The position numbers and the translations under genes are program-made. 64,000 bases of DNA, from NCBI RefSeq assembly GCF_000711295.1, contig NZ_JOMJ01000003.1:1499501-1563500 (forward strand). Reading direction: 5' to 3'. This DNA comes from Desulfohalovibrio reitneri. GTDB taxonomy: Bacteria; Desulfobacterota; Desulfovibrionia; Desulfovibrionales; Desulfovibrionaceae. A model generated the notes under the pieces. It worked only from the letters and a program-made list of their open reading frames with translations, made no database searches and was not told the DNA's origin. Every line of letters starts with the position of its first letter. The first letter of the stretch is position 1. Shown piece after piece: positions 34,984 to 41,513 of this stretch.

Positions 34984-35250
34984 GTGACGCTGCTCGCCTG
35001 GACACCCCAGGCCCGGGAGGAATACCTCTTTTGGCGGAAGGTGGACAAGGAAGAAGGCCTCAAGCGCGTCAACATGCTGCTCCGCGACGCCCTGCACAGT
35101 CCGTTTGAAGGCCGGGGGAAACCGGAAGCCCTCCGCTTCGACCTCTCAGGCTACTGGTCCCGCCGCATCGACCAGGAGCATCGCCTCGTCTCCAAGTACG
35201 ACGACAAGAAGGACTGCCAGATTGTGGTCCAGTGCCGATACCACTACTGA
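34984..35250 (+). CDS. yoeB: YoeB/Txe-family mRNA interferase toxin without intact antitoxin
   Basis: 88 residues from GTG 34984. It aligns over its full length with YoeB: EEYLFWRKVDKE, SPFEGRGKPEALRFDLSGYWSRRI, EHRLV and the terminal CRYHY. The catalytic residues expected from E. coli YoeB (Glu of PFEGxGKPE region, Arg of SRRI, His-Tyr at the end) are all present; only the usual Tyr after EHRLV is Ser. YoeB is a ribosome-dependent endoribonuclease. No complete yefM gene precedes it; a universal stress protein gene ends 58 nt before. Activity without an antitoxin would be harmful, so either expression is silent, the start is inefficient, or control lies elsewhere. Confidence 0.88.
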   Translation: MTLLAWTPQAREEYLFWRKVDKEEGLKRVNMLLRDALHSPFEGRGKPEALRFDLSGYWSRRIDQEHRLVSKYDDKKDCQIVVQCRYHY

Positions 35251-37811: not shown

Positions 37812-38816
37812 ATGAACCATCGCTTTTGCGCGCGCGGTCCGCTGAGGCTGGCCGCGTGCCTCGTCATGTGCGTTCTGCTGTCCGGGTGTGGCGTGGTGCA
37901 GGACGTGAAGGGGAAGTACTACCTGCAGTCCAAGAGCTTCGAGGCCGGGGCGGAAAGCTTCCGCGCCGAGCTGGCCGAAGACCCGGCCAACCCCCGGGCC
38001 AACTTCTACCTGGGCCGCTTCCTGCTGGCCGAGGACAAGCCGGGCGAGGCGGCCAAGTACCTTAAACGCGCCACCCAGTACGCCCCGGATGACGAGGACT
38101 ACCTCTTCTGGCTGGGCGTTGCCCGGGGCGAGGCGGGAGACACGGAAAAAGAGCGGGACAGCTACCGCCGGGTGCTGCGCATGGAGCCCGGCCACCTGGG
38201 CGCACGACTCCACCTGGCCCACCTGCAGCTCAAGGCTGGCGAGAACGAGCAGGCCCTGGACAACTACCGGAAGGTGTTGGACAAGCGACCCTATTCCACG
38301 CAGGCCCTCTACAACCGCGCCCTCATTCTTGGCAGGCTGGGGCGGACGCCGGAGGAAAAGACCGCCTGGAAGCACTATCTGGCCGCCTGGCCGGACGGCC
38401 CCCTGGCCCGTCTGGCCACCGACCACCTCAACGACCTTGGCGACTTCAGCTACCGCAATCACCTGCTGGGCAAGCGGAAAGTCACCCTGGAAAAACTGGC
38501 CTTTCAGCCCTTCAAGCCGGAGCTTTGGGGCGGCTCCACCGCCTCCCTGGACTTGGTGGGCGAAATTCTGGCAAACGCCGAAAACCTGGACCTGTATGTG
38601 GTCGCCTACCAGCGCAACAACCGCGAACTGGCCAGGGAACGCGCCCTGGCCGTGCGCGACTACCTGCTGGAGAACTTCGACCTGCCGTCCGAGCGTGTGA
38701 AGCCCAGCTGGTTCGGCGTGGCCGAGCGCATCAAGGTTTCGGGCGAGACCTTCGAGGAAGGCCAGTCAGTGAACCTTTTCGCCGTCTCCGCGAATAAATC
38801 CGGTTCCTCCTTGTGA
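37812..38816 (+). CDS. TPR lipoprotein with OmpA-like C-terminal domain
   Basis: 334 residues from ATG 37812, preceded by AGGAGG. The N-terminus is a lipoprotein signal with lipobox LLSGC (Cys near 25). Residues about 40-190 are four TPR-like repeats (ANFYLGRFLLAEDKPGEAAKYLKRA and so on). After LNDLGDFSYRNHLLGKR comes an OmpA-like segment, LDLYVVAYQRNNRELARERALAVRDYLLENF, ending with RVKPSWFGVAERIKV. The next-but-one gene product at 39415 has the same TPR, LNDLGDF, OmpA-like and SWFG order, so the two are paralogs. Location: anchored in the inner or outer membrane, facing the periplasm. Confidence 0.8.
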   Translation: MNHRFCARGPLRLAACLVMCVLLSGCGVVQDVKGKYYLQSKSFEAGAESFRAELAEDPANPRANFYLGRFLLAEDKPGEAAKYLKRATQYAPDDEDYLFWLGVARGEAGDTEKERDSYRRVLRMEPGHLGARLHLAHLQLKAGENEQALDNYRKVLDKRPYSTQALYNRALILGRLGRTPEEKTAWKHYLAAWPDGPLARLATDHLNDLGDFSYRNHLLGKRKVTLEKLAFQPFKPELWGGSTASLDLVGEILANAENLDLYVVAYQRNNRELARERALAVRDYLLENFDLPSERVKPSWFGVAERIKVSGETFEEGQSVNLFAVSANKSGSSL

Positions 38817-38876
38817 CCGTTTCCGGCCGTCTGCGTATATCCTGGTAAACGGGGCCGCCCCCGCCGGGTACACGGG

Positions 38877-39434
38877 ATGAATGACGCGACCGCGATACGG
38901 CTGGTGCTGGCCGGCGACACGGAGGCCTTCGGGAGCTTCGTGCGCCGTTACCAGCGACCCATCTACAATCTCATGTACCGCGCGGCGCGGGACGAGGAAG
39001 CCGCCGCCGACCTGACCCAGGAGGCCTTCGCGCGCGCCTTCAAGGGGCTGGACGGCTTCGACGCCAACAGGCGCTTCTTCCCCTGGCTCTACGCCGTGGG
39101 CGTGAACCTAGCCCGCGACCACGCCCGCAGGAAGCGGGCAGCCCCGGACACCGTGGAGGTCCGCGGGGAGGACCTGCCCGCCTCCGATGACTCGGAGCAG
39201 GAGCTGGCCCTCATCCTAGGCGCGGACGCCCGGGCCGTGCACCACGCCCTGGGCGAGCTGGACCTGGAGCACCGCGAAGCGCTGGTGCTGCGGTTTCAGG
39301 AGGAGATGACCATGCGGGAGATCGCCGACGCTCTGGAGATTTCCCCCAGCGGGGCAAAAATGCGGGTACACCGCGGGCTGGCCAAGATGAAACGGATTCT
39401 CGTGGAGAACGGACATGAGCCCGGAACGGACTGA
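38877..39434 (+). CDS. ECF sigma factor (RpoE-like)
   Basis: 185 residues. Region 2 is clear (FGSFVRRYQRPIYNLMYRAARDEEAAADLTQEAFARAFKGLDGFD...FFPWLYAVGVNLARDHAR), and region 4 is ALGELDLEHREALVLRFQEEMTMREIADALEISPSGAKMRVHRGLAKMK, the helix-turn-helix for the -35 element. No region 3 or C-terminal extension. The last 20 nt overlap the next gene, which encodes a single-pass membrane protein that is the natural anti-sigma candidate. It probably controls genes for envelope functions, including its own neighbours; I could not identify a matching promoter pair by eye. Confidence 0.92.
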   Translation: MNDATAIRLVLAGDTEAFGSFVRRYQRPIYNLMYRAARDEEAAADLTQEAFARAFKGLDGFDANRRFFPWLYAVGVNLARDHARRKRAAPDTVEVRGEDLPASDDSEQELALILGADARAVHHALGELDLEHREALVLRFQEEMTMREIADALEISPSGAKMRVHRGLAKMKRILVENGHEPGTD

Positions 39435-40509
39435 CCTCAATGACGCCCTCGGCAAGCGCATCCGCGATCTGCCGGAAGCCGAGCCGCCGGAGTGGCTTGC
39501 CGACGCGGTCATGCTCCGGGTGGCCGCGAGCCGCCCCTGGTGGCGGCGCTGGCTGGACGGGCTGACCACCCGGCCCGCTCTCGCCCCCGCCCTGGTGGCG
39601 GCCTGCCTGCTGTTGGCCTTCAGCGGGGGGTTCCTGGCCGGGGGCGGCTTGGCTCCGCCCGCCTCGCCGGGCGAGGTGTACCGCGCAGCGGGCGGCAACG
39701 CCGAATCCTCCTTCCTCTTCGGCCGGGGCCTGCTGGCCTCGGGCCATACCGGGGAGGCCGTGGCCATGCTCTCCCGGGCGGTGGAGCGCGAGCCCCTGCG
39801 CGTGGAATACCGCATCTGGCTGGACAAGGCGCTGGGCGAGGCCGGACGGGTGGACGAGGAGCTGCGGCAGTACCGCAAGGCCGCGGCCATCGACGACCGC
39901 TCCTTCCTGCTCCGCCGCCGTCTGGCCCAGGGCTTCCTGCGCACCGGCAAGCCGGAGATGGCGGCCGCGGAGTACGCCCGCATCCTGCAATCCGCCCCGC
40001 GCGACCAGCAGGCCCTGCTGGGCCGGGCCGAGGCCATGGCCAGGCTGGGCCGCAACGGCGAGGCGGCCGCCTCCCTCAAGGAGCTTCTGGCCCAGGACAT
40101 TCCCGGCGGACGGGCCCTGCGGGCGGTCTCCATGCTCAACGACCTTGGCGACTTCACCTACCGCCGGGCCACCGTGGGCAAGCGCAGGCTGGCCATCCGA
40201 GCCCCGTCCTTCGAGGACGGCCGCCTCACCCCGGAGAGCCGCGTCTCCCTGCGCGGCGTGGCCGAGACTCTGCGCCATTCCCCCGGGACGACCCTGCACG
40301 TGGTGGCCTTTGTCGAGGGCAACCGTGAGGTGGCCAAGCAACGCGCCCTGCTGGTCAAGCGGGAGCTGACCCGGCAGGCCCCCGGCCTGCGGGCGAAGCG
40401 CATCCGCACCAGCTGGTTCGGCAGCCCGGAACCGGTGGAAACCGGCTCCGGCGCGGCCTCGCTTTCCCAATCCATCCGAATTTTCGGGGTGCCCGAAACC
40501 ACAACATGA
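39415..40509 (+). CDS. putative anti-sigma factor with periplasmic TPR and OmpA-like domain
   Basis: 364 residues; ATG 39415 lies inside the sigma gene (20-nt overlap). Residues 1-50 are cytoplasmic, charged and Trp-rich (PPEWLADAVMLRVAASRPWWRRW), a plausible sigma-binding segment though without the zinc HxxxCxxC motif. A transmembrane helix follows (about 55-80, LAPALVAACLLLAFSGGFLAGGG). The periplasmic part has TPR-like repeats, MLNDLGDFTYRRATVGKR, an OmpA-like stretch LHVVAFVEGNREVAKQRALLVKREL and RIRTSWFG. It shares this whole region with the lipoprotein at 37812. Anti-sigma function is inferred from overlap, topology and position, not from a known domain. Confidence 0.7.
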   Translation: MSPERTDLNDALGKRIRDLPEAEPPEWLADAVMLRVAASRPWWRRWLDGLTTRPALAPALVAACLLLAFSGGFLAGGGLAPPASPGEVYRAAGGNAESSFLFGRGLLASGHTGEAVAMLSRAVEREPLRVEYRIWLDKALGEAGRVDEELRQYRKAAAIDDRSFLLRRRLAQGFLRTGKPEMAAAEYARILQSAPRDQQALLGRAEAMARLGRNGEAAASLKELLAQDIPGGRALRAVSMLNDLGDFTYRRATVGKRRLAIRAPSFEDGRLTPESRVSLRGVAETLRHSPGTTLHVVAFVEGNREVAKQRALLVKRELTRQAPGLRAKRIRTSWFGSPEPVETGSGAASLSQSIRIFGVPETTT

Positions 40510-40523
40510 GATCGGAGGCGGAC

Positions 40524-41450
40524 ATGCAAAACCGTATTCCTTTTACACGCTTGATCCTGCTGGCCCTGATGCTGCTGGCCCTGCTGGCCGCGCCGGCCCT
40601 GGCCCAGACAACCGACGGCGCCACGGACGGCACGGACACCACCCAGACCGACGACGGAACCACCGGTGACGACAACGTGACCAGCGCCTTCAACAACCCC
40701 ACCGAGGTCACGCGTGCCGAGGCGCTGGCCGAGGCCACGGCCACGGAGACCGACCAGGACACCCAGGCCGCTCTGGACGCCGTGGCCGAGGCCGAAGCCG
40801 ACTTGGCCGCGGCCGTGGAAACAGGCGACGAGGCGGCCATCGCCGAGGCGCAGGCGGAGCTGGACGCCGCCCGGGCAGCGGCCGACGAAAGCATGGCCTC
40901 CACCACCGGCGTCAGCGTGGACACCATCGCCGGCATGCGCGACGAGGGCATGGGCTGGGGCCAGATCGCCCACGACCTGGGCGTGCATCCCAGCGTGCTG
41001 GGCCTCGGCGTTGCCAAGGGCCAGACCCAGCGTTCCCAGACCCAATCCATGGCCCGCTCCCGCGACCGCGCCTCCGCCAAGGGGGAGATGGGCATGGCCA
41101 CCGCGCGCGGCCTGGGCAAGGGAGAATCCAGAGGCCACGGCGTGGGCCGCTCCTCCGACGGCCATCCCGGCAAGGGCGTGGGCCTGGCCGGCAAGAGCGA
41201 CCGCAGCGCCCCGGGCGCCTCCGGCATGTCCGGAGGCAAGGGCCGGGGCAACTCCGGCAACAGCCGCAGCGGCCCCGGCAACTCCGGAGCTCCCGGCAAC
41301 TCCGGCAACGCGGGCGGCCATGGCGGCGGTCCCGGCGGAGGCAACGGCGGGGGCAACGGTGGCGGCCCCGGCGGAGGCAACGGAGGCGGAAACGGCGGCG
41401 GCAATGGTGGTGGAAACGGCGGCGGGAACGGCGGGGGCAACGGCAGGTAG
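40524..41450 (+). CDS. exported protein with helical stalk and Gly/Asn-rich repeat tail
   Basis: 308 residues from ATG 40524, six bases after GGAGG; ATG 40506, which overlaps the previous stop, is an alternative. Residues 1-28 are a Sec signal (cleavage after ALA). A Thr/Asp-rich stretch precedes an Ala/Glu-rich probable coiled coil (about 65-130), then a compact motif GMGWGQIAHDLGVHPSVLG near 150. The last 110 residues are Gly/Ser/Asn-rich and end with about eight GGGN units. Such low-complexity tails suggest a surface or matrix protein. It probably belongs to the sigma-factor unit and may be its main product; function unknown. Confidence 0.75.
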   Translation: MQNRIPFTRLILLALMLLALLAAPALAQTTDGATDGTDTTQTDDGTTGDDNVTSAFNNPTEVTRAEALAEATATETDQDTQAALDAVAEAEADLAAAVETGDEAAIAEAQAELDAARAAADESMASTTGVSVDTIAGMRDEGMGWGQIAHDLGVHPSVLGLGVAKGQTQRSQTQSMARSRDRASAKGEMGMATARGLGKGESRGHGVGRSSDGHPGKGVGLAGKSDRSAPGASGMSGGKGRGNSGNSRSGPGNSGAPGNSGNAGGHGGGPGGGNGGGNGGGPGGGNGGGNGGGNGGGNGGGNGGGNGR

Positions 41451-41477: not shown

Positions 41478-41513
41478 AAAGGCGGCCGCACCGGTTTCGG
41501 TGCGGCCGCCTTT
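41478..41513 (+). terminator. strong terminator closing the ECF sigma unit
   Basis: AAAGGCGGCCGCACCG (41478-41493), loop GTTT, CGGTGCGGCCGCCTTT (41498-41513), then CTC. Sixteen perfect pairs. Confidence 0.85.

Follow-up and report, generated by a model that had tools for sequence, protein, structure and literature searches.

A putative ECF sigma/anti-sigma switch of Desulfohalovibrio reitneri with a sensor paralogous to a neighboring lipoprotein

We describe four adjacent genes of Desulfohalovibrio reitneri that may form an autoregulated ECF sigma/anti-sigma switch. The predicted periplasmic sensor of the candidate anti-sigma factor is an ancient paralog of the lipoprotein encoded next to it, and we modestly favor the view that these two copies work as a matched pair. 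Comparisons of sequences establish the homology, the layout, its conservation, the exchange of sensor domains, and a promoter placement that would fit autoregulation. For the signaling step between the lipoprotein (LP) and the anti-sigma factor, we propose the following. From a promoter at 38812-38839, the sigma factor would transcribe its own gene together with those for the anti-sigma factor and a Gly-rich exported protein. (All positions are those of the window, the whole stretch of 64,000 nucleotides that we analyzed.) LP would be transcribed separately and would probably already be on the outer membrane beforehand, where it would present the same TPR/OmpA-like domain that the anti-sigma factor presents from the inner membrane. 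As a matched pair, the two copies might contact each other or compete for one common partner, for which role the exported Gly-rich protein is the strongest candidate. If the pairing changed, the anti-sigma factor would release the sigma factor, which would lead to more anti-sigma factor and more Gly-rich protein, and the response would shut itself off.

All four genes are on the forward strand. LP (334 amino acids, 37812-38816) comes first and is followed by the ECF sigma factor (185 amino acids, 38877-39434), by the anti-sigma candidate (364 amino acids, 39415-40509), whose gene starts within the end of the sigma gene (39415/39434), and finally by the exported Gly/Asn-rich protein (308 amino acids, 40524-41450). 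Aligned members of the Gly-rich family have in common a conserved core, VSVDTIAGMRDEGMGWGQIAHDLGVHPSVLGLG (40911-41009, forward strand). A strong intrinsic terminator-like hairpin lies 3' of the unit (41478-41513). LP has a signal peptide and the lipobox LLSGC, which fits the bacterial pattern [LVI][ASTVI][GAS]C; its Cys26 (37887-37889) aligns with the lipobox cysteine of its relatives and has Gly at +2. The outer membrane is its presumed location. The sigma factor matches Sigma70_r2 (PF04542, E = 9e-15), Sigma70_r4_2 (PF08281, E = 8e-12), and, above the cut-off, TIGR02937 (E = 3e-29). It has sigma2 and sigma4 regions and no sigma3, and its length is within the range of about 180-200 amino acids for ECF sigma factors.

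A sequence-only reading of this DNA had proposed that LP and the membrane protein encoded at 39415 share a region in the same order, with one copy anchored by a lipid and the other by a membrane helix. Both parts of this proposal were borne out, the second by the lipobox cysteine and by a predicted helix at residues 57-75. Their BLASTP alignment extends from the TPR region to the C-terminus, taking in LNDLGDF, the OmpA-like part, and SWFG, and has 96 identities in 269 positions (36%, E = 1e-43). In Pfam searches, both match TPR and OmpA (PF00691, E = 3e-6 for LP and 6e-6 for the anti-sigma candidate), so the homology that the sequence-only reading wanted checked with profiles is there; relative to the curated OmpA cut-off of 27.2 bits, LP passes (27.8) and the anti-sigma candidate falls just below (26.9). 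In a tree of 43 proteins, the anti-sigma copies group together (98/91), apart from the partner lipoproteins, which have a clade of their own (99/95). Because the two kinds of copies fall in separate clades, the duplication is ancient as judged from this tree, which rules out a recent local duplication; the view of it as a local event has to be given up.

We consider the product of 39415 to be a candidate anti-sigma factor because of its position, its topology, and the similarity of its N-terminus to those of other putative anti-sigma factors. The AlphaFold2 model (mean pLDDT 89) has N-terminal helices (residues 3-52), a membrane helix (residues 57-75; 39583-39639, forward strand), TPR helices (residues ~96-243), and an OmpA-like alpha/beta end (residues 249-360). 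The predicted topology is that of a membrane anti-sigma factor: the gene follows the sigma gene, and the protein would have cytoplasmic helices, one membrane helix, and a periplasmic remainder (residues 85-360). The TPR and OmpA-like region comprises residues 96-360 (39700-40494, forward strand). The predicted cytoplasmic N-terminal segment (residues 1-53; 39415-39573, forward strand), which would bind the sigma factor, shows homology to the N-terminal parts of "CBM48-type" anti-sigma factors, which are encoded beside sigma genes of the same family and have a CBM48-like domain as their sensor. The gene overlap, the N-terminal helices, and the membrane helix thus back the pairing with the sigma factor that had been suggested, with the protein still a candidate. 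No curated anti-sigma model matched it, and residues 1-55 contain no His/Cys motif of the form HxxxCxxC. (That zinc-binding motif is known only from the ZAS subgroup of anti-sigma factors.) A Foldseek search with the model gave nothing specific; TPR proteins and designed helical proteins were among the matches listed.

These four genes recur in the same order in one further genome of the Desulfovibrionaceae, in one deltaproteobacterial MAG, and in about 30 genomes from a second order. The arrangement is therefore present in related genomes, where the sequence-only reading had suggested looking for it, and finding it in about 30 other genomes argues that it is not due to chance. A search of contigs with a single protein as the query found no loci, and an alignment of two fused (TPR/OmpA-type) anti-sigma proteins found six. 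Among 26 fused loci from the one other order, the lipoprotein is upstream in all 24 that could be checked, and every contig that extends far enough has a Gly-rich gene next. UBA6814 and another MAG have fused loci as well.

Most Desulfovibrionales instead pair the same sigma family with an anti-sigma factor that has a CBM48-like domain. One sigma clade (100/100) serves both types of anti-sigma factor, and a profile of the N-termini of the CBM48 type recognizes the fused TPR/OmpA ones, so the sensor of the anti-sigma factor has been exchanged. The upstream lipoprotein matches it: in a third layout, from 5 genomes, a CBM48-like lipoprotein precedes the sigma gene and a CBM48-like anti-sigma factor follows it. 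In the commonest layout, the anti-sigma factor is of the CBM48 type and the TPR/OmpA lipoprotein is a downstream target, so the domains do not match, and not all members of the sigma family can require a match. Given the age of the pairing, its recurrence in about 30 other genomes, and its CBM48 counterpart, the matching domains probably contribute to sensing by the switch. Tentatively, and with more doubt than confidence, we suggest a class of ECF systems that encode, directly before the sigma gene, a lipid-anchored and sigma-independent copy of the anti-sigma sensor, so that the sensor (TPR/OmpA-like or CBM48-like) can be exchanged only as a matched pair of lipoprotein and anti-sigma factor.

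Across the family, the probable promoter motif is TGTGACC-N15/16-CGTATA. The probable sigma-dependent promoter of our unit, TGTGACC-N15-CGTATA (38812-38839, forward strand), overlaps the stop codon of LP and would provide a -35 and a -10 element upstream of the sigma gene, as expected from its sequence for an autoregulated ECF factor. When we searched the 3.39 Mb genome for exact instances of GTGAC-N16-18-CGTATA, this site between LP and the sigma gene was the only one. This placement suggests autoregulation of the sigma, anti-sigma, and Gly-rich genes and not of LP; rather than belonging to a sigma-controlled operon, LP appears to lie beside the autoregulated transcription unit, with the promoter at its 3' end. 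The motif is present in 24 of 32 gaps between lipoprotein and sigma genes (22 of 30 without duplicates; shuffled mean 0.075) and upstream of 17 of 22 CBM48-type sigma genes (at most 3 in shuffles). It is rare upstream of the lipoprotein itself in the matched TPR/OmpA layout (4/26) and common there where the lipoprotein and Gly-rich genes are downstream targets (17/25; P = 2e-4, Fisher exact test). UBA6814 and a few other loci lack the motif, and extra copies in CBM48-type loci did not indicate a clear further target.

The closest precedent is cell-surface signaling (FecA/FecR, FoxA/FoxR, and PupB/PupR), which also combines an ECF sigma factor with an anti-sigma factor that has a short cytoplasmic part, a single membrane helix, and a periplasmic sensor. 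There, the outer-membrane partner contacts the sensor, and the two share a fold as they do here; in our unit the partner would likewise be at the outer membrane. In FoxA/FoxR and PupB/PupR, contact requires the C-terminal subdomain of the anti-sigma factor, which is homologous to the signaling domain that the outer-membrane partner carries (PMC11637429). However, cell-surface signaling uses STN as the shared domain and a TonB-dependent transporter as the partner, whereas here the shared region is TPR plus OmpA-like (or CBM48-like), the partner is a lipoprotein, and there is no transporter gene; in Pfam searches, none of the four proteins matched FecR, STN, or TonB-receptor families. SigI/RsgI, the biomass-sensing system of clostridia, resembles our unit in having an autoregulated operon and an anti-sigma factor built from a cytoplasmic sigma-binding part, a membrane helix, and an extracytoplasmic sensory module (PMC6056542), but it is Gram-positive, SigI is not an ECF factor of this family, and there is no matched lipoprotein. 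The CBM48-type units (sigma factor, AMPK1_CBM anti-sigma factor, MID, TPR/OmpA lipoprotein, and Gly-rich protein) share the sigma clade, the promoter motif, the anti-sigma N-terminus, and the lipoprotein and Gly-rich families with ours; they differ in their AMPK1_CBM/CBM48-like sensor, in the MID gene, and in placing the lipoprotein downstream, as a target that has a separate copy of the promoter. As proposed for our unit, the inner-membrane anti-sigma factor of the RseA/RseB-sigmaE system is read out jointly with a periplasmic partner. To our knowledge, though, RseB is not a paralog of the periplasmic part of RseA, and neither protein has the TPR/OmpA region. We found no description of this layout in the open-access literature on anti-sigma factors with CBM48 or TPR/OmpA domains or on ECF systems of Desulfovibrio.

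A narrower explanation is that only direct contact between like domains matters: LP would touch the anti-sigma factor from the outer membrane and protect it from, or expose it to, proteolysis. FoxA/FoxR and PupB/PupR set a precedent for this, and the match of domains persists through the exchange to CBM48, but we know of no case in which TPR, OmpA-like, or CBM48-like domains pair with their own copies, and we consider this explanation somewhat unlikely. Just as doubtful is that the anti-sigma factor uses its copy of the LP domain to measure free Gly-rich protein, which its own operon encodes, with LP as the normal receiver of that product. Lipoprotein and Gly-rich genes do occur in pairs with no sigma gene nearby (loci L035, L040, L044, L045, and L090-L092). 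Also, the TPR/OmpA-type anti-sigma factor goes with the Gly-rich gene and without MID, while the CBM48 type goes with MID, and the D. reitneri genome has neither MID nor a CBM48-type anti-sigma factor. On the other hand, the partner genes are close neighbors, so their association may be historical. (MID has a confident all-helical model, with pLDDT 92, and no PDB match at E below 0.17; homology of the Gly-rich protein to MID is unsupported, with an hhalign probability of 9%.)

It had also been suggested that both copies bind the same target, in the first place peptidoglycan via the OmpA-like part; the switch would then report damage to the wall. The CBM48/CBM48 layout strengthens the idea of a common target, but peptidoglycan as that target is not supported, and we think wall sensing very improbable. 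The OmpA-like fold is recognizable in both proteins. However, the aspartate that is critical for binding diaminopimelate in OmpA (PMC6572160) is replaced by Arg in LP and by Glu in the anti-sigma factor, it is Asp in only 2 of 30 relatives, and its loop is about six residues shorter; the arginine that binds diaminopimelate is kept in 20 of the 30. With the diagnostic aspartate and its loop missing, canonical peptidoglycan binding is unsupported. The partner lipoproteins have a signature in this loop, Y-Q-K/R-x-N; because the anti-sigma copies diverge quickly and do not share it, a common ligand at this loop is doubtful. Finally, the fusion might have been an accident of evolution that gave the anti-sigma factor a generic periplasmic spacer, with no functional link to LP. 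Many domains are of this size, and recombination of TPRs is widespread. But the pair has been kept in at least two orders, including at every locus of the second order where this could be checked, and the theme of matched domains recurs with CBM48, which makes an accident improbable.

Few ECF anti-sigma factors have a known signal. In this system, the DNA reveals the partner, the promoter, and the target gene, along with a natural swap of sensor domains, so whether the matched lipoprotein sets the anti-sigma factor can be tested directly, among other places in the cultured strain Desulfogranum mediterraneum DSM 13871. A functional match would mean that the logic of cell-surface signaling is not confined to STN domains and transporters but extends to other domains and to lipoproteins.

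Four genes on the same strand make up the unit: a lipoprotein (37812-38816), an ECF sigma factor (38877-39434), a membrane protein that is the candidate anti-sigma factor (39415-40509), and a Gly-rich exported protein (40524-41450). The sequence-only reading proposed that the lipoprotein and the membrane protein are colinear homologs, and pairwise alignment confirms this, with the elements in the order that it gave (36% identity across 269 residues, E = 1e-43). By Pfam, each protein has TPRs and an OmpA domain. AlphaFold2 models the membrane protein (pLDDT 89) as N-terminal helices, then one membrane helix at residues 57-75, a set of TPR helices, and an alpha/beta end resembling OmpA; we call this protein the fused anti-sigma. 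The core of the Gly-rich protein (MRxxGMGWGxIAxELG, 40911-41009, + strand) is very conserved and, despite export, has a weak helix-turn-helix-like match (HTH_38). Elsewhere in the window, a YoeB-type toxin gene (34984-35250, + strand; PF06769, E = 5e-27) immediately follows a universal stress protein gene, and the roughly 58 bases directly upstream of it are too few for an antitoxin gene.

We searched 199 genomes from the order and 288 from the family. Relatives of the lipoprotein are common there, but the fused anti-sigma was found in just one further Desulfovibrionaceae genome, UBA6814 (G339, locus L089), with identical gene order. A wider scan of one genome per species, using the two fused proteins as queries, added Desulfocapsa MAGs, Desulfogranum mediterraneum DSM 13871, and one unclassified deltaproteobacterial MAG, each with the lipoprotein, sigma, fused anti-sigma, and Gly-rich genes. 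Of 243 genomes from the order that contains Desulfogranum, 38 gave a match at E = 1e-40. We extracted 26 fused loci from this order (L181-L206). Two are at contig edges, and all 24 of the testable loci have a same-strand lipoprotein upstream; every contig that extends far enough also has the sigma and Gly-rich genes. The arrangement was expected to recur in related genomes, and it does, in about 30 (the one-genome-per-species scan and the search of the Desulfogranum order share some organisms and are not additive). The unit is real and conserved, and it is broader than could be told from the window.

In a tree of 43 proteins, one branch (98/91) sets the six anti-sigma copies apart, another (99/95) the six partner lipoproteins, and no anti-sigma copy clusters with the lipoprotein of its own locus. 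This separation argues that the two are an old pair of paralogues, inherited together. The anti-sigma copies diverge faster (the terminal branch for the window's copy is 1.99), so their exact placement is unsure.

Most Desulfovibrionales units, with sigmas from the same clade, have another layout: sigma, CBM48-type anti-sigma, MID (an exported helical protein), TPR/OmpA lipoprotein, and Gly-rich protein. The periplasmic part of this anti-sigma is AMPK1_CBM/CBM48-like (PF16561, above cut-off). In a third layout, found in five genomes (L100, L103, L142, L144, and L145), a small CBM48-like exported protein precedes the sigma, a CBM48-like anti-sigma, and MID, usually with a Gly-rich tail. The upstream protein has a clear lipobox in 3/5 (LAGC, VGC, TGC; unclear in L144 and L145). 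The sigmas of all three layouts form one clade (100/100), separate from more distant CBM48-anti-sigma units, and an N-terminal profile of CBM48-type anti-sigmas recognizes the fused ones (E = 2e-5 to 1e-22). So the sensor domain was exchanged, and the cytoplasmic part and the membrane helix stayed. In each of the two layouts where a lipoprotein precedes the sigma, its domain matches that of the anti-sigma. Small lipoprotein-like CBM48-like proteins in L160 (4369-4704, - strand) and L161 (4403-4729, - strand), placed after the CBM48-type anti-sigma rather than before the sigma, are a further case in which the sensor domain also exists in free form. MID, which accompanies CBM48-type anti-sigmas (L034:6161-6931, - strand, and relatives), is an all-helical family (AlphaFold2 pLDDT 92) with a Gly-rich tail in some genomes; it has no Pfam match, and a PDB fold search gave no convincing match. 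Neither MID nor a CBM48-type anti-sigma is encoded in the window's genome. Outside the window, that genome encodes a free-standing CBM48-like protein, about 140 amino acids long and not adjacent to the unit (contig C3:655558-655839, + strand).

For 22 CBM48-type sigma genes, we counted spaced word pairs in the upstream DNA and compared the counts to shuffles. GTGAC-N17-CGTA precedes 17 of the genes (best shuffle, 3), and the sites align as TGTGACC-N15/16-CGTATAT. The window has a single site, a probable sigma-dependent promoter at 38812-38839, which overlaps the lipoprotein stop codon and lies 37 bases ahead of the sigma gene; this is the sole occurrence of GTGAC-N16-18-CGTATA in the 3.39 Mb genome. 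In the window's layout, GTGAC-N16-18-CGTA is found in 24/32 lipoprotein-sigma gaps (22/30 with two duplicate records removed; shuffle mean, 0.075). In the 250 bases ahead of the lipoprotein gene, 4/26 loci with the window's layout (one a duplicate record) carry the motif vs. 17/25 with the common layout (P = 2e-4, Fisher exact test, uncorrected for relatedness). This placement suggests that in the window's layout, transcription of the sigma, anti-sigma, and Gly-rich genes depends on the sigma and that of the lipoprotein gene does not, while in the common layout, the lipoprotein and Gly-rich genes would be targets of the sigma.

Peptidoglycan had been suggested as a common ligand, bound via the OmpA-like part. 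This part aligns weakly to structures of YiaD, OmpA, and MotY (best E = 3e-4). Where those proteins carry Y-T-D-S and about six more residues before a helix, the unit's family has a shortened loop. In A. baumannii OmpA, Asp271 and Arg286 are each critical for binding diaminopimelate (PMC6572160). The Arg is retained in 20/30 relatives, but the Asp is replaced by Arg in the window's lipoprotein and by Glu in its anti-sigma, and is present in 2/30 relatives. Thus, with the Asp replaced and the loop shortened, canonical peptidoglycan binding is unsupported. At the shortened loop, Y-Q-K/R-x-N is common to partner lipoproteins of the window's layout and absent from the anti-sigma copies.

The homology, layout, exchange, and promoter are read from sequence; from here we infer mechanism. 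The lipoprotein and the anti-sigma may act as a matched pair, either by mutual contact or via a common partner, which would probably be the Gly-rich protein. The Gly-rich gene accompanies the lipoprotein gene even where no sigma gene is nearby. Two such pairs lie in tandem at L035:4826-9177 (+ strand), in a genome with no sigma gene of the unit's family at E = 1e-20, so lipoprotein and Gly-rich protein also have a role without it.

We found no description of the lipoprotein/sigma/fused anti-sigma layout among the open-access papers that we searched. The closest tested precedent is cell-surface signalling (FoxA/FoxR, PupB/PupR), in which the anti-sigma has a C-terminal subdomain homologous to its outer-membrane partner's signalling domain, and contact runs through this homologous region; for FoxR, this contact shields the anti-sigma from proteolysis (PMC11637429). 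The four proteins have no Pfam match to STN, FecR, or a TonB receptor, so the unit is not a member of that family. It follows the same logic with other parts, and if our model is right, it would work comparably.
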